DNA of 64,000 bases from Cellvibrio sp. 79 (GTDB taxonomy: Bacteria > Pseudomonadota > Gammaproteobacteria > Pseudomonadales > Cellvibrionaceae), in contig MVDH01000003.1 in the NCBI GenBank assembly GCA_003056245.1, positions 1,155,957 through 1,219,956 on the forward strand, read 5' to 3'. Shown piece after piece: positions 41,309 through 53,981 of the stretch; positions within the stretch are counted from its first letter, which is position 1; each line of letters begins with the position of its first letter. The notes under the pieces were generated by a model, which was given only the letters and a program-made list of their open reading frames with translations, made no database searches and was not told the DNA's origin. Position numbers and translations under genes: made by a program.

Positions 41309-43837
41309 TTATTGTTTGAGTAATTTATAGATTTCCAGGCTGGCACCAATAAACGGCGCGTTGCCTTTTGGATCGTTGGAAAAAATACGTTCAGTCATGT
41401 AGTAATCATAGGTCCCATCGCGACCAAAACCCAAGCCTGCAACCAGGCATTGATCGTTCATACTGATGTTGCCATCTTTATGAACGGTAACGAATTCGTT
41501 GATAAGACCCTGGTAGCTTTTCACAGCGGCAGCGCGATAGGATTCTGGCAAATAGCCTTTGTTAACCGATTTTGCAAAAAAATAAGTAAACATAGCACTC
41601 GCTGATGACTCGCGATAATTCGCGATATCACCCGGTCTGTCGGTAATTTGCCACCAGGTGCCGGTTGCTGCATCCTGGTAGCGCAAAATATCCGGAGCAA
41701 ACTCAGTGATAATATCGATCAGTGTTTTGCGCAATTCAGTTTCAGATTCGGGAATAAAATCCAGCACATCAACCAATGCCATTGCATACCAGCCCATACC
41801 GCGCGACCAGAATTGCGGGGCGCGGCCGGTTTGCTTATCGGCCCAATCGGCTTTTTTGGATTCATCCCACGCGTGATAATAAAGACCTGTTTTTGCATCG
41901 CGCAGATGTTCCCGTGCAATAACAAATTCATGCACCGCTTCGTTAAAACTTTTATGTTGTTGTTCACCCGTTTCATATGCGGCAGCATAGCGCGCTAAAA
42001 ACGGCATGCCCATATATACGCCGTCCAACCATAATTGGTTTGGATAAGTCGCACGATGCCAGAACGCACCTTCACTGGTGCGCGGGTGACGTTTTAAATT
42101 CTCACGTAAATAATCGGCGGCTTTGCGATATTTTTCCTGTTTGGTGCGCTGCTCCAGCAAAATAACCATTTCACCGGGTTTGGTTAAATCAATGCTGAAT
42201 AAATCCGGTTCAAATGTTTCGATGTGGCCATCGTCGCGAATAAAACTTCCGGTAACGGTTTCAAGCGCTTTGCGATAAGCGGGGTTGGGGCTAATTGCAT
42301 CAATATCTTGCAATGCGGCAATTTGCATTCCTACCACATCGTATTCAAATTTTCCGGGGCGTTTGCGGTATTCATCCCAGCCTTGATAGTGGTAATTCAG
42401 GGTTTTACGCTTAAGTTCGGAGTCCGCTAATTTTTTTGCCCAATTCAATGCAGCTTCAGAATCAACCGGTTTTTGTTTTGCCGCCTGACTGATAGACGAT
42501 TCAAAACGTACCCGTGGTGTTTTGGTCAAGCGCTGGATTTCGCTATCGAGATACGCCTTGAATTCGGCTTCGGTTTTGATGCCGTTTAATTCATGTTCCC
42601 AAGCAGCAACAAAATAATATTCCAGCTCACCGCCTTTATCTTTCATGATGGAAACATAAGAATTTTCATCAGTGGTTTGCTTTTCGCGATCATCGCGACG
42701 GAAAATTACCGCCATACCCAAATGATCGTTTTCGCCACTTAAACTTTGTTTGCCCCAACTGGCGGCGTAGGTCCAGGCGTAACCGCTAATATTTTGCGGA
42801 CCTTCAATAAACGTAGTGCCAGGGTGCTTAACCAAACCAATCGCAAGATTTGGCAATTGCTGGCTGGCTTGCAATTTCACATTCACCAGGCGACTGCCGG
42901 CATTCATGGTTAAATGCGCTGTTAAATCCACCTTTTGGTTATTGATTTGCCAACCGTTGTAATTAATTTTGAGTCCGGAATAAATATCACCGTTGTTGGT
43001 GATAACAGCATCGCGAGTATCGACTAACGAAACCAGATCAACACTTTTACCATTCCAGAAACCATAACCACCCATACCGAGGGACTTGCCGACTTTTAAA
43101 ACGTCCACACCCCAATCGGAATTCAGGTGATAGGAATCGTAACCATCCTGCCCGACGTTCTGCAGAACAACATCGTTAGTTTTCTTGCCAAAAATATCGA
43201 AACCGTTGCGCCAATCGAGATAAACACGATACGCCACCTTATCGGATTCAATGCCTGGGCCTTCGTAACGAATCCAGAATGAGTGATCCGTGTATTGTGC
43301 GGGTGGCGTTACTTTATCGACATTTTTAAAAGTACCGCCCACATATTCCTTACCTTTCCATTCGCCGCCTTCTTTAATGGAAATTTCTGCCTGGGTTTGT
43401 TTTTTCAACGCCGGCTTTTGAATAGCGGGATCGGAAGAAATTACAAAGGATTTGCTTTCTGCCGCAGCGAAATCACCTGCTAATAACAAGCTATCCAGGG
43501 CGCCATCGCCATCGGTATCGACTGTTTGCGAAGGCTGCACTGCACCATTGGTAGAAACACTTAAATGTTTTACCGCTTCATCGGTTGGGTCTAAACCCAG
43601 ATCGTAAAATGGAAAATAAATGGGCTCTTGTTGCAATGCAAAATTATTGGCATTGGTAATTTCAGCGGTTGCCACTTGGAGATTGGCAGCCGTAGTTTGC
43701 GCAACAGATGTTGTAGCTGTGGTTTGTTGTTCATTGGTTTTTTCGGGTGAGCAACCAGTGATTGCTGCCAAAAAAATACCTCCATAAATAGCCTTGCGGG
43801 GCGTTCTGCTTTTCAACAATAAACTCACGCTCTTCAC
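41309..43837 (-). CDS. Lipoprotein: DUF4861 domain fused to GH105/GH88-type unsaturated glycuronyl hydrolase
   Basis: Lipobox AITGCSPEK; DUF4861-like N-half; C-half WHRATYPNQLWLDGVYMGMPFLARYAA, WSRGMGWYAMALVDVLDF typical of GH105. Confidence 0.88.
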   Translation of the reverse strand: MKSVSLLLKSRTPRKAIYGGIFLAAITGCSPEKTNEQQTTATTSVAQTTAANLQVATAEITNANNFALQQEPIYFPFYDLGLDPTDEAVKHLSVSTNGAVQPSQTVDTDGDGALDSLLLAGDFAAAESKSFVISSDPAIQKPALKKQTQAEISIKEGGEWKGKEYVGGTFKNVDKVTPPAQYTDHSFWIRYEGPGIESDKVAYRVYLDWRNGFDIFGKKTNDVVLQNVGQDGYDSYHLNSDWGVDVLKVGKSLGMGGYGFWNGKSVDLVSLVDTRDAVITNNGDIYSGLKINYNGWQINNQKVDLTAHLTMNAGSRLVNVKLQASQQLPNLAIGLVKHPGTTFIEGPQNISGYAWTYAASWGKQSLSGENDHLGMAVIFRRDDREKQTTDENSYVSIMKDKGGELEYYFVAAWEHELNGIKTEAEFKAYLDSEIQRLTKTPRVRFESSISQAAKQKPVDSEAALNWAKKLADSELKRKTLNYHYQGWDEYRKRPGKFEYDVVGMQIAALQDIDAISPNPAYRKALETVTGSFIRDDGHIETFEPDLFSIDLTKPGEMVILLEQRTKQEKYRKAADYLRENLKRHPRTSEGAFWHRATYPNQLWLDGVYMGMPFLARYAAAYETGEQQHKSFNEAVHEFVIAREHLRDAKTGLYYHAWDESKKADWADKQTGRAPQFWSRGMGWYAMALVDVLDFIPESETELRKTLIDIITEFAPDILRYQDAATGTWWQITDRPGDIANYRESSASAMFTYFFAKSVNKGYLPESYRAAAVKSYQGLINEFVTVHKDGNISMNDQCLVAGLGFGRDGTYDYYMTERIFSNDPKGNAPFIGASLEIYKLLKQ

Positions 43838-47024: not shown

Positions 47025-48485
47025 TCAAACTTTAAATTCAACACCCTGGATTTTTACATTGCTGGTGACAAACTTGTCCAATTCTTCCAGCACACCAACT
47101 GCGTCTACCTTTTTAAAATCGCAATTGATTAATTGAAGATTCTGGATGGGAGAGCGTTTATAACCACGCACTTGAAATACCTTATGCGCTGTTTCACATT
47201 TCAAATTGCTGATGTGGATATTGCGTACGGTGGGTGTAAATTTTCCGGCATCACCTTCTTCGTAGTGAAAGTCAATAACAATGGCGGTTTGCACTTCACC
47301 GATCATTATGTTTCGAATATAGAAATTTTCGATCAAACCACCGCGAATGGAATTGGTTTTGATGCGGATGCCGCGCTCAAGCTCCGGGCTGCTCATCACG
47401 CAATTTTCAACAAATACGTTGCGCACACCGCCGGAAATTTCACTGCCGATCACTACACCACCGTGACCACTGCGCATTTGGCAATTGTTGATTACAATAT
47501 TTTCGGAGGGGATGTTAATTCGGCGCCCATCCGCATTGCGGCCAGATTTAATGGCGATGCAATCATCACCGTTATCGAATAAACAATTTTTGATAACAAC
47601 ATTTTTGCAAGATTCGGGATCACAACCATCGGAATTAGGGCCATGGCTAACCAACTTGACGCCATCAATAGTGACGTTTTCACACAACACCGGATTCAAT
47701 AACCAGAACGGAGCGTTAGTGATGGTCACATTTTCAATCAATACATTTTTGCAGGAATAGGGCTGCACAAAGGTTGGACGCAAATAAGAACCGTCAGCGT
47801 AAATACGCCGGGCAACAGGCACATTGTTTTCCATGTCCTGCATTAATTTATTGCGCGCGGCTTCCTGGGTCGGCACACCCGGAATCCCCCAATCCACGCT
47901 GCTGAAATTACTGCCCTTCCACGGCCACCAGGTGGTGCGATTGCCCTGGCCATCGAGCGTACCTTTACCCGTCACCGCAATATTGGTTTGTTCATAAGCG
48001 TAAATCAGCGGGGAGTAACCCATGATTTCCATGCCTTCCCAGCGGGTAAATACGGCGGGCAGGTAGGCTTTGGGATCGGTGATAAATGCGATGGTTGTAT
48101 TTTCATCAATATGCAAATTGACGTTGGAACGCAGATGAATCGGACCACTCAGGTATCTGCCGTCGGTCACCAGCACCTTACCGCCACCAGCGTTATGGCA
48201 AGCAAGAATAGCGGCGGCAATCGCCTGGCTATTGTCATAGCCATCTTTGGCCTGAGCGCCATAAGTACGGATATCAAAGATTCGATCAGGAAATTCGGGG
48301 GGGCGCACTTGCTGGCGAATCAACTCCGCCTGTGACCAAGGGTCAGCACTAACAGGAGAGTCGACTGAAATTTTGGTGTGGGCACAACCACCCAGAGCGC
48401 CAATGGCCGAGCAACCGGCAATGGCTGCCAAACTCTGATGGATAAAGGCACGACGGCCTGCATGTTCCAGGTACATCTCAGTCAC
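47025..48485 (-). CDS. Glycoside hydrolase family 28 (polygalacturonase-like)
   Basis: DIRTYGAQAKDGYDNSQAI, NSDGCDPESCKNVVIKNCLFDNGDDCIAIKSGRN, GHGGVVIGSEISGG; signal peptide/lipobox-like N-terminus. Confidence 0.94.
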   Translation of the reverse strand: MTEMYLEHAGRRAFIHQSLAAIAGCSAIGALGGCAHTKISVDSPVSADPWSQAELIRQQVRPPEFPDRIFDIRTYGAQAKDGYDNSQAIAAAILACHNAGGGKVLVTDGRYLSGPIHLRSNVNLHIDENTTIAFITDPKAYLPAVFTRWEGMEIMGYSPLIYAYEQTNIAVTGKGTLDGQGNRTTWWPWKGSNFSSVDWGIPGVPTQEAARNKLMQDMENNVPVARRIYADGSYLRPTFVQPYSCKNVLIENVTITNAPFWLLNPVLCENVTIDGVKLVSHGPNSDGCDPESCKNVVIKNCLFDNGDDCIAIKSGRNADGRRINIPSENIVINNCQMRSGHGGVVIGSEISGGVRNVFVENCVMSSPELERGIRIKTNSIRGGLIENFYIRNIMIGEVQTAIVIDFHYEEGDAGKFTPTVRNIHISNLKCETAHKVFQVRGYKRSPIQNLQLINCDFKKVDAVGVLEELDKFVTSNVKIQGVEFKV

Positions 48486-48788
48486 TGCGTGTTCTCTCGT
48501 GTATTGCTTTATCGGCTGAATGCTTTTGTTTTTATGGCCAGGCTTCTTTAAGGGCGGCTTTTGATTATCGGTAACACTATCGCCTGCATCACTTATTAAT
48601 GAGTTTTAGCAGATGATCTTATGTGTCACTGGCAAATTACCCAATCCGGCTTTTTCTCGAAAGAAGATATTTATCCTCCTATCGAATGAAAATCATTCTG
48701 TATGTCATGTTTGATATTTGCAAGCCAATAGCACAAAAATTTTCCTTAACAAGCGTAAATTTAGTGTTTTTTACGTCATATTTGTCAT

Positions 48789-48800
48789 GTAACCGTTTAC
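48789..48800. promoter_or_regulatory. LacI-type operator candidate 1
   Basis: GTAACCGTTTAC, central CG. Confidence 0.45.
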
Positions 48801-48819
48801 TTTTATTTAATAATTAAAA

Positions 48820-48833
48820 TGTAAACGTATACA
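48820..48833. promoter_or_regulatory. LacI-type operator candidate 2
   Basis: TGTAAACGTATACA, central CG; 32 bp centre-to-centre from candidate 1. Confidence 0.5.
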
Positions 48834-48979
48834 TATCACTTTAGATAGAAATTTTTTAAAAAATATTTCACTTTTCGTAAAAATTAAACATCCTATTATT
48901 TTATAAAATTTAGGATAATTTTATTAATATGATAGATTAGCTTTTATGTAACAGGCTAAAGATTTGTTTCGCGCCAAAT

Positions 48980-49110
48980 GAAACCGATTACATTTGCGGT
49001 TTCGGCGATTTTGGGGCTGTTGCAGGGCCAAAAAATCGAGCGTAGATTTGATCCCGGTATTGACCGAATACCATTGCCGATTTTGAGGCGCCGCAAGGCG
49101 CCTTTTTTTT
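48980..49110 (+). ncRNA. Candidate structured RNA (small RNA or attenuated leader of uxaA)
   Basis: Hairpins GAAACCG/CGGTTTC (48980-49003) and GGTATT/AATACC (49056-49072), then a strong terminator. Confidence 0.45.
49086..49110 (+). terminator. Strong intrinsic terminator with GCAA tetraloop
   Basis: AGGCGCC-GCAA-GGCGCCT followed by T7. Confidence 0.85.
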
Positions 49111-49283
49111 ACGATCGAATTATCGGTGCGGCTAAATACGCCAAAGGGCGTATGGAGTTGAAGGAATAGCGGTGAGAATTTTCTTGCGGGCTACACTTGA
49201 AAAGATCACGGAGGCATCAATCCTTTTCGGTAAGTCATTACATCGATATTCCCTACTTCGAAAGCATCGAAAGAGAGACACGC

Positions 49284-50804
49284 GTGAGCAGTATTATTGT
49301 TTTGCATGACAGAGATAACGTTGGTATTTGTAAAGTTGCCCTGCCAGCCGGGGTTCTGTATGCAGAAAAAGATGTCACCCTCCTGCGCGACATTCCAGCC
49401 CTGCACAAATTTGCTGTGCGCCCTATCGCCAAAGGCGAAGCGATTTTGAAATACGGTCAAACCATTGGTTTTGCCAGCCAGGATATTCCCGCCGGTGAAC
49501 ATGTACATGTCCACAATTGCGTGATGGGGGTTCTGGAAAAAGATTACGGTTTTTGCGAAGAAACCAAACCCACAGAATTTGTACCTATCGAAAAGCGCGC
49601 GACCTTCCAGGGCTATAAGCGTCTGAATGGGAAAGTTGGCACGCGCAATTTTGTGGGCATTATCACCACCGTCAATTGCTCAGCGACCGTTGCGAAAGCA
49701 ATTGCCCAACATTTCACATTTTCCGGCGAGTTGGAAAAATATCCGAATATTGATGGCGTCGTCGCCATGACTCACGACTCCGGCTGCGGTATGCGTTCGG
49801 ACGGTGAAGGCTACGAAACCTTGCGTCGCACTTTTAACGGTTATGCGCGTCACCCGAATTTTGGCGGTGTGATGATGGTCGGCCTGGGTTGCGAAACCAT
49901 GCAAATCCAACGCGTGATGGAAGAGTGCGGCCTCGCCGATTCCAAAACATTTACGGCGTACACCATTCAGGATGTGGGCGGTACGCGTATTGCGATTGAA
50001 AAAGGTATTGAGACCTTGCGCGCGATGTTACCGCTGGTCAACGAGTTCCAACGCGAAACCGTTTCTGCGAGCGAATTAATTATCGGGTTGCAATGCGGTG
50101 GATCTGATGCACTGTCCGGCGTAACGGCAAATCCTGCCCTGGGTATCGCAGGCGATATTTTAGTTCGCCACGGCGGCACTGTAATTTTGTCCGAAACGCC
50201 GGAAATTTTTGGTGCCGAACATTTGCTGACGCGCCGCGCTGAAAACCCGCACATCGCACAAAAATTATTGGATCGCATCAGCTGGTGGGAAGATTACACT
50301 GCACGCAATGATTTCGAATTAAATAACAATCCATCACCCGGTAATAAAGCGGGCGGATTAACAACAATTATTGAAAAATCCCTCGGCGCGCAAGCCAAGA
50401 GCGGCTCGACCAATTTAACCGACGTATTTTTATACGGCGAAGACATAACCACAAAAGGTTTTGTGTTTATGGATAGCCCCGGTTATGACCCGGTTTCGGC
50501 AACAGGCCAGGTTGCATCCGGCGCGCAGATTTTGTGTTTCACCACCGGTCGCGGATCTGCATTTGGTTGCAAACCAGCGCCGAGTATCAAGCTTGCCACC
50601 AACAGTAAAATCTTTGCCCACATGAATGAAGATATGGATTTGAATTGCGGCAAAGTACTGGATGGTGAAGTAACACTGGAGCAAAACGGCCAGGAAATTT
50701 TTGAAGAAATTCTTGCAGTTGCGTCCGGAAAGAAAACCAAAAGCGAATTGCTAGGCTATGGGGATAATGAATTTATTCCGTGGAAGATTGGGGCGGTGGT
50801 TTAA
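49284..50804 (+). CDS. uxaA: Altronate dehydratase family (UxaA)
   Basis: SAF-like N-terminus, GYKRLNGKVGTRNFVGIITTVNCSATVAKAIAQHF, GLQCGGSDALSGVTANPALG; GTG start at 49284 preferred (ORF opens at TTG 49197). Confidence 0.93.
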   Translation: MSSIIVLHDRDNVGICKVALPAGVLYAEKDVTLLRDIPALHKFAVRPIAKGEAILKYGQTIGFASQDIPAGEHVHVHNCVMGVLEKDYGFCEETKPTEFVPIEKRATFQGYKRLNGKVGTRNFVGIITTVNCSATVAKAIAQHFTFSGELEKYPNIDGVVAMTHDSGCGMRSDGEGYETLRRTFNGYARHPNFGGVMMVGLGCETMQIQRVMEECGLADSKTFTAYTIQDVGGTRIAIEKGIETLRAMLPLVNEFQRETVSASELIIGLQCGGSDALSGVTANPALGIAGDILVRHGGTVILSETPEIFGAEHLLTRRAENPHIAQKLLDRISWWEDYTARNDFELNNNPSPGNKAGGLTTIIEKSLGAQAKSGSTNLTDVFLYGEDITTKGFVFMDSPGYDPVSATGQVASGAQILCFTTGRGSAFGCKPAPSIKLATNSKIFAHMNEDMDLNCGKVLDGEVTLEQNGQEIFEEILAVASGKKTKSELLGYGDNEFIPWKIGAVV

Positions 50805-50918: not shown

Positions 50919-51105
50919 TAAGTCGCAGTTTTACAGATCATCTTTTTATCGAACTACGCTCAATTTTAAAAATTTTTACACAACAATAACCAGCAAATAG
51001 CTGGATTAACTAGAAAGCAAATTACGGCAGTTCCATCGGTCACATTAATAATGCATTGATGTGACTTTCTATTGCCCAAAATTTGCCACAGAGAGAACGA
51101 CAACA

Positions 51106-52263
51106 ATGAAAATAGCCATCACCAAAGAACGGCGGGCGCACGAGCGTCGCGTTGCCGCCACACCTGACACCGTTAAAAAATTTGTCGCCCTGGGTTTTTC
51201 TGTCGCCATTGAAAAAGGTGCCGGAGAATCCAGCCGTATTCCCGATAGCGATTACCAGACTGCTGGCGCAACTATTGAAAACGATACCGTTAATTTATTG
51301 CGCGATGCCGACATAGTATTGAAAGTTCAGCGACCATTGCTCGAAGGCGAGGGCGAAATTAATGAGCTCGCGCTAATAAAGCGCGGAGCGTTATTAATTG
51401 CCATGCTTTCACCTTATGCCGATCCCGTCGCGCTCACTCAATACGCGCAAGCAGGTATCACGGCGATGACTCTGGAATTTGTGCCGCGAATTACGCGCGC
51501 GCAATCTATGGATGTATTGAGCTCGCAATCCAACCTCGCCGGTTATCGCGCGGTGCTGGAAGCAATTAATATTTATGATCGCGCCATGCCGATGATGATG
51601 ACCGCCGCCGGCACAATTGCACCAGCGCGCGTAATGGTTCTTGGTGCCGGTGTCGCTGGCTTGCAAGCCATTGCAACGGCACGCCGTTTAGGTGCAATTG
51701 TTTCTGCAACAGACGTGCGCGCTGCATCCAAAGAACAAGTGGAGAGCCTCGGCGGAAAATTTGTGATGGTGGAAAGCGAGGAAGTTAAAAACGCTGAAAC
51801 TGCTGGCGGTTATGCCAAAGAAATGAGTGACGATTATAAACGTCGTCAGGCGGAATTGGTTGCTGAAACATTAAAGAAACAAGACATCGCCATTTGCACT
51901 GCGTTAATTCCCGGACGCAAAGCGCCCACACTCATTAATGATGAAATGGTTTATTCCATGCGCCCCGGCTCGGTAATTGTCGATCTTGCAGCAGAGCAAG
52001 GCGGTAATTGCACGCTGACGAAACCCGGTGAAATTGTTGAGGTTAACGGTGTAAGCATCATCGGTTTATTAAATATTCCGAGCCGCTTGTCGGCAGATGC
52101 CAGTGCACTTTATGCAAAAAATCTATTGAATTTTATTTCCCCTATGGTGAATGCCGATAAACAGCTCGCTGTTAATTGGCAGGATGAAATTATTGCGGCA
52201 ACCGTGCTTACGCGCGACGGCGATATTGTTCATCCCAACTTTAAACCTGCCAGCGCGGCTTAA
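51106..52263 (+). CDS. pntAA: NAD(P) transhydrogenase subunit alpha part 1
   Basis: MKIAITKERRAHERRVAATPDTVKKFVALG, RVMVLGAGVAGLQAIATARRLGAIVSATDVR. Confidence 0.95.
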   Translation: MKIAITKERRAHERRVAATPDTVKKFVALGFSVAIEKGAGESSRIPDSDYQTAGATIENDTVNLLRDADIVLKVQRPLLEGEGEINELALIKRGALLIAMLSPYADPVALTQYAQAGITAMTLEFVPRITRAQSMDVLSSQSNLAGYRAVLEAINIYDRAMPMMMTAAGTIAPARVMVLGAGVAGLQAIATARRLGAIVSATDVRAASKEQVESLGGKFVMVESEEVKNAETAGGYAKEMSDDYKRRQAELVAETLKKQDIAICTALIPGRKAPTLINDEMVYSMRPGSVIVDLAAEQGGNCTLTKPGEIVEVNGVSIIGLLNIPSRLSADASALYAKNLLNFISPMVNADKQLAVNWQDEIIAATVLTRDGDIVHPNFKPASAA

Positions 52264-52275
52264 GGGGAATTCATT

Positions 52276-52575
52276 ATGGAAACCAGTTTTGTTTCGCAGT
52301 TATCTATTTTTGTGCTCGCGATTTTTGTGGGCTACTACGTGGTCTGGAGTGTAACGCCCGCGTTGCATACTCCATTGATGGCAGTGACCAACGCAATCTC
52401 CAGTGTAATTATTGTCGGTGCATTAATTGCCGTCGGCCCCGAAGGCATCAGCTTGTCCAAAGTGCTCGGCTTTGTCGCCATGGTGTTAGCCGCAATTAAT
52501 ATTTTTGGCGGTTTCACCGTGACGCATCGCATGCTCGCCATGTATAAAAAGAAAGATAAAGCGGGAGGCAAATAA
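52276..52575 (+). CDS. pntAB: NAD(P) transhydrogenase subunit alpha part 2
   Basis: 99 aa, GYYVVWSVTPALHTPLMAVTNAISSVIIVGAL, FGGFTVTHRMLAMYKKK. Confidence 0.95.
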   Translation: METSFVSQLSIFVLAIFVGYYVVWSVTPALHTPLMAVTNAISSVIIVGALIAVGPEGISLSKVLGFVAMVLAAINIFGGFTVTHRMLAMYKKKDKAGGK

Positions 52576-52577
52576 TC

Positions 52578-53981
52578 ATGACCAGCCTTCATGTAAATCT
52601 GACAGCGTTTGCTTATTTAGTCGCAGCCGTTTTATTTATTCTTGCATTGCGCGGTTTGTCATCCCCCGAATCATCACGACGCGGCAACACGCTCGGTATG
52701 ATCGGCATGGCGATCGCAATTATTACTACGATTTTGAGCCCGGAAATTACATCCTACAGCTGGATTTTTTCCGCGTTAGCCATTGGTGCGGTGATTGGTA
52801 TTTTTATCGCGCGCAAAATTGCCATGACAGCGATGCCGCAATTAGTCGCAGCGTTTCATAGTTTGGTGGGCATGGCGGCGGTGTTAGTCGCTGGTGCTGC
52901 ATTCAGTAATCCGATTGGTTTTGGTATTGCCAATGCAGCAGGTGAAATCTTTATCGCCAGCCGCATTGAAATGGGATTGGGCGTCGTCATCGGTGCGATT
53001 ACCTTTTCCGGTTCAGTGATTGCATTTACCAAATTGCAAGGTTTGGTTTCCGGCAAACCGATCGTGTTCGGCGGCCAGCATTTTTTAAATGCATTAATTG
53101 GTTTGCTGATTATTGGTTTGATCGTTTATTTCTGCGTTGACCAATCACCGTGGATTTTCTGGAGCATGACCGCGCTGGCATTTTTAATTGGTGTACTGCT
53201 GATTATTCCTATCGGCGGAGCTGATATGCCGGTAGTAGTTTCCATGCTCAACTCTTATTCAGGGTGGGCTGCTGCCGGTATCGGATTTACCTTGCACAAT
53301 AATGCATTAATCGTTACTGGTGCACTAGTCGGCTCGTCGGGCGCTATTCTTTCCTATATCATGTGCAAAGGTATGAATCGCTCATTTTTCAATGTAATTC
53401 TTGGCGGTTTCGGTGCGGATGCAACGGCTGTTAATACCGCAGGTGGCGAAGATAAACCGGTTAAACAAGGCAGCGCCGAAGACGCCGCGTTTATTATGAA
53501 AAATGCCGGTTCAGTCATTATCGTTCCCGGTTACGGCATGGCGGTGGCGCAAGCGCAACATGCATTGCGCGAAATGGCCGACGAATTAAAACACGCCGGA
53601 GTAAAAGTAAGCTATGCCATTCATCCGGTGGCGGGCCGTATGCCCGGCCATATGAATGTGCTGCTCGCTGAGGCCAATGTGCCTTACGACGAAGTGTTTG
53701 AGCTCGATGATATTAACAACGAATTCCAGACTGCGGATGTTGCTTTTGTGATCGGTGCAAATGATGTAACGAATCCCGCTGCCAAAACCAATCCACAAAG
53801 CCCGATTTTCGGCATGCCGATCCTGGAAGTGGAAAAAGCGCGCACCGTATTGTTTGTGAAACGCTCCATGGCTTCAGGTTACTCGGGCGTGGAAAATGAA
53901 TTATTTCATCGCGATAACACCATGATGTTGTTTGGTGATGCGAAGAAAATGGTTGAGTCCATTGTAAAAAATATTTCATAG
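52578..53981 (+). CDS. pntB: NAD(P) transhydrogenase subunit beta
   Basis: GADMPVVVSMLNSYSGWAAAGIGF, VIIVPGYGMAVAQAQHALREM, HPVAGRMPGHMNVLLAEANVPYDEV. Confidence 0.96.
   Translation: MTSLHVNLTAFAYLVAAVLFILALRGLSSPESSRRGNTLGMIGMAIAIITTILSPEITSYSWIFSALAIGAVIGIFIARKIAMTAMPQLVAAFHSLVGMAAVLVAGAAFSNPIGFGIANAAGEIFIASRIEMGLGVVIGAITFSGSVIAFTKLQGLVSGKPIVFGGQHFLNALIGLLIIGLIVYFCVDQSPWIFWSMTALAFLIGVLLIIPIGGADMPVVVSMLNSYSGWAAAGIGFTLHNNALIVTGALVGSSGAILSYIMCKGMNRSFFNVILGGFGADATAVNTAGGEDKPVKQGSAEDAAFIMKNAGSVIIVPGYGMAVAQAQHALREMADELKHAGVKVSYAIHPVAGRMPGHMNVLLAEANVPYDEVFELDDINNEFQTADVAFVIGANDVTNPAAKTNPQSPIFGMPILEVEKARTVLFVKRSMASGYSGVENELFHRDNTMMLFGDAKKMVESIVKNIS

Follow-up and report, generated by a model that had tools for sequence, protein, structure and literature searches.

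The window (the whole 64,000-nt stretch of Cellvibrio sp. 79 DNA that was analyzed) holds a GH28 pectinase-family gene on the minus strand and uxaA on the plus strand, which point apart and leave an intergenic tract between them (table 1). This divergent arrangement had been proposed in a sequence-only reading of the DNA and is upheld by Pfam and by the GTG start codon of uxaA at 49284, which is conserved among relatives; all sequences named in that reading are present where it placed them. GH28 is the flanking gene in Cellvibrio, and synteny shows another gene in its place in Marinimicrobium. As judged by comparison across relatives, the tract is composed of an operator, a promoter, an RNA gene of ∼55 nt, and a separate probable −10 element of uxaA, rather than being a single multi-hairpin leader.

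Table 1. Features of the GH28–uxaA intergenic region and the second copy of the sRNA gene.
Feature	Position	Strand	Basis
GH28 pectinase-family gene	47025..48485	−	Pfam Glyco_hydro_28
Two further LacI-like palindromes, TGTAACCGTTTACT and TGTAAACGTATACA	48787..48833	.	Kept in most of 17 aligned Cellvibrio
Predicted LacI-type operator, TGAAACCGATTACA	48979..48992	.	Fixed spacing to invariant block; rare genomic motif
Predicted sRNA promoter, sigma-70-like, TTGCAG-N17-TAGATT	49020..49048	+	Found in all 23 copies
Predicted sRNA gene, ∼55 nt	49056..49110	+	Conservation profile, invariant 26-mer, fold z
Invariant 5′ element, 26-mer GGTATTGACCGAATACCATTGCCGAT	49056..49081	+	Letter-identical among carriers
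5′ hairpin, GGTATT-GACCG-AATACC	49056..49072	+	One of two folds of the invariant element
Linker between 5′ element and terminator	49082..49085	+	
Intrinsic terminator, AGGCGCC-GCAA-GGCGCCT + T-run	49086..49110	+	Kept in all copies
Probable uxaA −10, TACACT	49192..49197	+	CTACACT in 12 of 17 Cellvibrio
uxaA, altronate dehydratase	49284..50804	+	Pfam GD_AH_C, GD_AH_second, SAF
Second copy in this genome (L110)	G000:C8, core at 266961		Counterparts in relatives: L111, L112

Conservation delimits the RNA gene at both ends. When 48940–49300 is used as a query, matches are found in most genomes of the genus and many stop at the T-run. With 17 Cellvibrio aligned, identity to the window stands at ∼0.95–1.0 over 49056–49105, drops directly after the terminator to 0.25–0.45 (0.25–0.57 across 49116–49275), and climbs again at the start codon of uxaA. 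Conservation of 49056–49110 is far above chance and, on alignment, the profile is that of a short gene and not of a long leader. The 26-mer at its 5′ end (GGTATTGACCGAATACCATTGCCGAT) is found with zero mismatches in 17 of 21 Cellvibrio and in all three genomes of a genus that we take as Marinimicrobium, and an exact match is also present in Marinimicrobium agarilyticum. With up to three mismatches allowed, none of the family's 30 other genera has it. Outside these genera, a covariance model recovered no convincing relative in either the family or the order; its weak matches in other genera were rejected, having the GC-rich terminator alone in common with the query. A search for a phage origin of the gene gave no match. 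Both of the Cellvibrio genomes without a uxaA match (among 21) also lack the RNA, and among the 19 with uxaA only two, G002 and G005, are without it, the uxaA of G002 being a fragment in a draft assembly. On these comparisons, we consider 49056–49110 very likely to be a genuine sRNA gene with independent termination.

The predicted promoter is likewise constant. Each of the 23 copies has a TTGC or TTGT box, a spacer of 17–18 nt, and then TAGATT, TACATT, TAAATT, or TAGTCT, and in each the −10-like hexamer ends 6–7 nt ahead of the invariant block (the promoter of copy L066 was read directly from sequence). Because these promoter-like boxes stand at a fixed distance from the block, the most likely transcription start is 49056 or a position one or two bases away, which makes the first G of GGTATTGACC the predicted 5′ end. 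The sequence-only reading had instead proposed an RNA of ∼170 nt with several stems, beginning near TATGAT at 48928–48933. That hexamer exists but is poorly conserved and too far upstream, and the long RNA is replaced by one that most likely begins near 49056. The stems of the proposed multi-hairpin tract all exist as sequence, but only 49056–49110 is conserved as RNA. GAAACCG (48980–48986) can pair with CGGTTTC (48997–49003), but this stem is not conserved, and the operator TGAAACCGATTACA has GAAACCG as its left half. Similarly, CGATTTTGG (49006–49014) can pair with CCAAAAAATCG (49028–49038), but the stem is not conserved among relatives and the pairing overlaps the −35 box and spacer of the sRNA promoter. 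Both are therefore better regarded as DNA features. Only the stem of GGTATT (49056–49061) and AATACC (49067–49072) is inside the invariant 5′ element.

The plus-strand terminator described earlier is correct in each part, with AGGCGCC at 49086–49092, a GCAA loop, GGCGCCT at 49097–49103, and a T-run at 49103–49110. A single terminator-like site is unremarkable alone (two were found in the region versus 1.7 expected in shuffles); it is the relatives that make the region remarkable. The fold of the segment 49054–49111 is much more stable than expected from shuffled versions of it (z = −4.5; 0 of 200). The window copy has a T7–T8 tail and an ATTTTGA linker, agreeing with the U tail of at least ∼7 and the U-rich stretch ahead of the terminator that we used to define Hfq-class RNAs. 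One clade has a shorter tail (T5), and in the second copies the terminator loop is built differently. The 5′ element can adopt either of two mutually exclusive folds, GGUAUU-GACCG-AAUACC (−6.1 kcal/mol) versus CGGUA.UG...CA.UGCCG (−6.7 kcal/mol). No covariation supports either hairpin among the copies compared, since the element never varies. Paired and unpaired bases alike are invariant, which suggests that the 5′ sequence itself is constrained, by target pairing, by protein binding, or by a need for both folds. Total invariance of a paired region is unusual and points to a strong constraint at the level of sequence.

The location of the predicted LacI-type operator relative to the sRNA is also maintained. 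The center of TGAAACCGATTACA is at about −70 relative to the predicted sRNA start, and the spacing from operator to block is 63 bp here and in 15 of 17 Cellvibrio primary copies (those beside uxaA), some of which have divergent palindromes, and 61 bp in the second copies. Marinimicrobium and two Cellvibrio have another type of palindrome, TGACA-CG-TGTCA, located 92–95 bp away. This is approximately three helical turns further out, suggesting that the bound protein would work from one face of the DNA. The TGWAAYCGRTTWCA motif has seven sites in this genome versus none in the reversed control, and the other six precede, or lie close to, genes of mannanase-like, TonB-receptor, epimerase-like, and alpha-glucosidase-like type, names that come from reading the proteins and not from a family search. 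The predicted operator is palindromic with a central CG and is common to functionally related genes, as is typical of a LacI regulon; there is thus an apparent mannan-type LacI regulon that takes in the sRNA. The palindromes TGTAACCGTTTACT and TGTAAACGTATACA probably serve the GH28 promoter. Between these palindromes and the operator, TGTAACAGGCTAA (48947–48959) is strongly conserved upstream of primary copies in most Cellvibrio, is not present in second copies, and is perhaps part of the GH28 promoter.

The sequence-only reading allowed for either an sRNA or an attenuator, and the sharp-ended conserved gene, the upstream promoter element, and the second copies favor the sRNA. Second copies are located away from uxaA in this genome (G000) and in two relatives (G013 and G014). 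Each has an identical 26-mer, its own promoter, and its own operator, with a different terminator. On one side of each is a carbohydrate-type gene, TonB receptor or GH43-like, that points away from it; on the other side, a convergent gene for a TonB-type receptor ends in a terminator of its own. Because the next gene faces them and no co-directional gene is downstream, the second copies cannot attenuate. They stand alone, which demonstrates independence from a neighboring gene in position, not in activity. If the primary copy were a conditional terminator, or a protein- or ligand-responsive leader of uxaA, transcripts from the promoter at 49020–49048 would stop at 49110 unless uronate allowed read-through, and the second copies would be repurposed duplicates. 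The constant place of the primary copy, immediately ahead of uxaA in each of the 20 genomes that have one, including Marinimicrobium with its different gene on the other flank, fits an sRNA and an attenuator alike and could mean a role in cis. One Cellvibrio clade, in which the gap to uxaA is just 61–94 nt and CTACACT is missing, is more in line with attenuation. However, an attenuator should precede a co-directional regulated gene in every copy, and three do not. Moreover, the gap between terminator and uxaA (60–200 nt) is unconserved, and CTACACT, the probable −10 of uxaA in 12 of 17 Cellvibrio, is downstream of the terminator at a variable distance from both the terminator and the start codon. 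Nor was an antiterminator found: the terminator hairpin persists in the predicted folds, and its arms have no conserved partner or alternative pairing. For these reasons an independent sRNA is favored and the attenuator reading is disfavored, and we regard it as unlikely. Attenuation by the primary copy may nonetheless occur as a side effect, given that this copy is always just upstream of uxaA. An sRNA with a leaky or regulated terminator, whose read-through supplies part of the uxaA mRNA, would combine the two and would suit a promoter, terminator, and uxaA that are co-directional and always adjacent. But most Cellvibrio have a separate element for uxaA, and we give such a combination little weight.

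The favored reading is that 49056–49110 would be a stand-alone, trans-acting sRNA of ∼55 nt. It would be transcribed from its own sigma-70 promoter, starting within a base or two of 49056, with termination at the GC-rich hairpin and its U tail. Transcription would be controlled by a sugar regulator of the LacI family bound ∼70 bp upstream, Hfq would associate with the U-rich linker and 3′ tail, and the invariant 5′ element would base-pair with mRNAs via GGUAUUGACCGAA and/or AUUGCCGAU, with the outcome that sugar metabolism is adjusted during use of plant polysaccharides. The gene, its ends, the promoter element, the operator, and independence from uxaA come from sequence comparison, and the model as a whole, which adds to these LacI control, a role for Hfq, and base-pairing, we judge to be probable. 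Hfq is encoded in this genome (PF17209 match, 101 bits) and the terminator has a T7–T8 tail, making an Hfq-class base-pairing sRNA the most economical model; the predicted gene also has the own promoter, intrinsic terminator, and absence of a coding frame of that class. The first 26 nt do not differ among 20 species, and the sRNA would therefore probably help to regulate the use of plant sugars.

Searches for targets were less informative. Complementarity at translation-start regions was not above that of shuffled seeds in the 2.4 of 4.4 Mb of the related genome G004 that were covered, and no candidate target conserved across the genus was found. A 12–13-nt complement of GGUAUUGACCGAA is located ∼30 nt before the start of nagB in 6 of 21 genomes (G001, G002, G004, G008, G011, and G019; the leader in G004 is at C2:166846–166892). 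In this genome the 13-mer complement is missing from nagB; its sole occurrences are in the two sRNA genes. The site is confined to six close relatives, and the rest of the leader is just as well conserved among them; it therefore does not count as independent evidence, and nagB was rejected as an established target. A possible hairpin over the ribosome site, CACTCACTGGAGTG, adjoins the nagB complement. Also rejected were a GntR-type regulator (2 of 21 genomes), the uxaA leader, which pairs no better than shuffled sequence, and the genes of the window, which have no strong site in common with their orthologues in G004.

The lack of targets in these searches, along with invariance that covers both paired and unpaired 5′ bases, would also be consistent with a decoy, that is, an invariant hairpin that titrates an RNA-binding protein and does not pair with mRNA. 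But the RNA is without the GGA motif expected of a CsrA/RsmA decoy and without any repeated motif, and there is a single element per RNA; we find a decoy rather improbable. A small protein, encoded by the ORF at 48978–49169 or by a frame through the core, has in its favor that one frame of the core reads GIDRIPLPI in every copy. The sequence-only reading had already deemed this 63-aa ORF noncoding, and interrupted frames refute it as a coding sequence. A stop occurs before the core in 8 of 17 Cellvibrio copies, five of which have no start codon after it; in addition, wobble positions are invariant too and the frame continues through the terminator. The chance that this is a protein gene is negligible. 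Returning to the base-pairing sRNA, we offer as speculation, with low confidence, that one 26-nt sequence forms two mutually exclusive hairpins that present different surfaces for pairing. The RNA would then link the mannan-type LacI regulon with the use of galacturonate through trans effects on several pathways of sugar use (in some species nagB, for example), the clade of this genome having an additional copy.

No family in Rfam 15 is above its gathering threshold over the region. The earlier suggestion to search Rfam, covariance models, and orthologous intergenic regions thus yielded no family, but did yield conservation of 49056–49110 in the orthologous regions. The sole Rfam match, isrK (RF01394), is likewise a small RNA with a hairpin and a terminator, but it scores 20.3 bits versus a gathering score of 50 (E = 1.1), which is chance level, and this identity was rejected. 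Spot 42, SgrS, and ChiX are Hfq-dependent, carbon-source-regulated sRNAs of Gammaproteobacteria. The predicted sRNA resembles them in being intergenic, with its own sigma-70 promoter, a U-tailed terminator, a predicted site for a sugar regulator, and catabolic neighbors, and differs in having no sequence or Rfam match to them, a much shorter length (∼55 nt), and a LacI-type site. Like the attenuators and leader RNAs of catabolic operons, it has a hairpin and terminator before a catabolic gene, uxaA; unlike them, it has no antiterminator that could be found, a likely separate element for uxaA, and copies without a downstream gene. None of the papers returned by literature searches described an sRNA of Cellvibrio or one at uxaA. 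We rate the candidate as a new family among sRNAs of a familiar type. Cellvibrio is a genus studied for the breakdown of plant polysaccharides. If correct, the model provides a post-transcriptional regulator of polysaccharide use that can be tested directly, is under a sugar-regulator operator, and is duplicated in some species.

Other features of the window concern sugar use as well. One protein of the pectin locus (41309–43837, minus strand) has DUF4861 fused with a GH88 domain. Genes for NAD(P) transhydrogenase-like subunits, named by reading the proteins, follow uxaA at 51061–53981, and this order is kept in several relatives, which suggests a redox link to galacturonate use.
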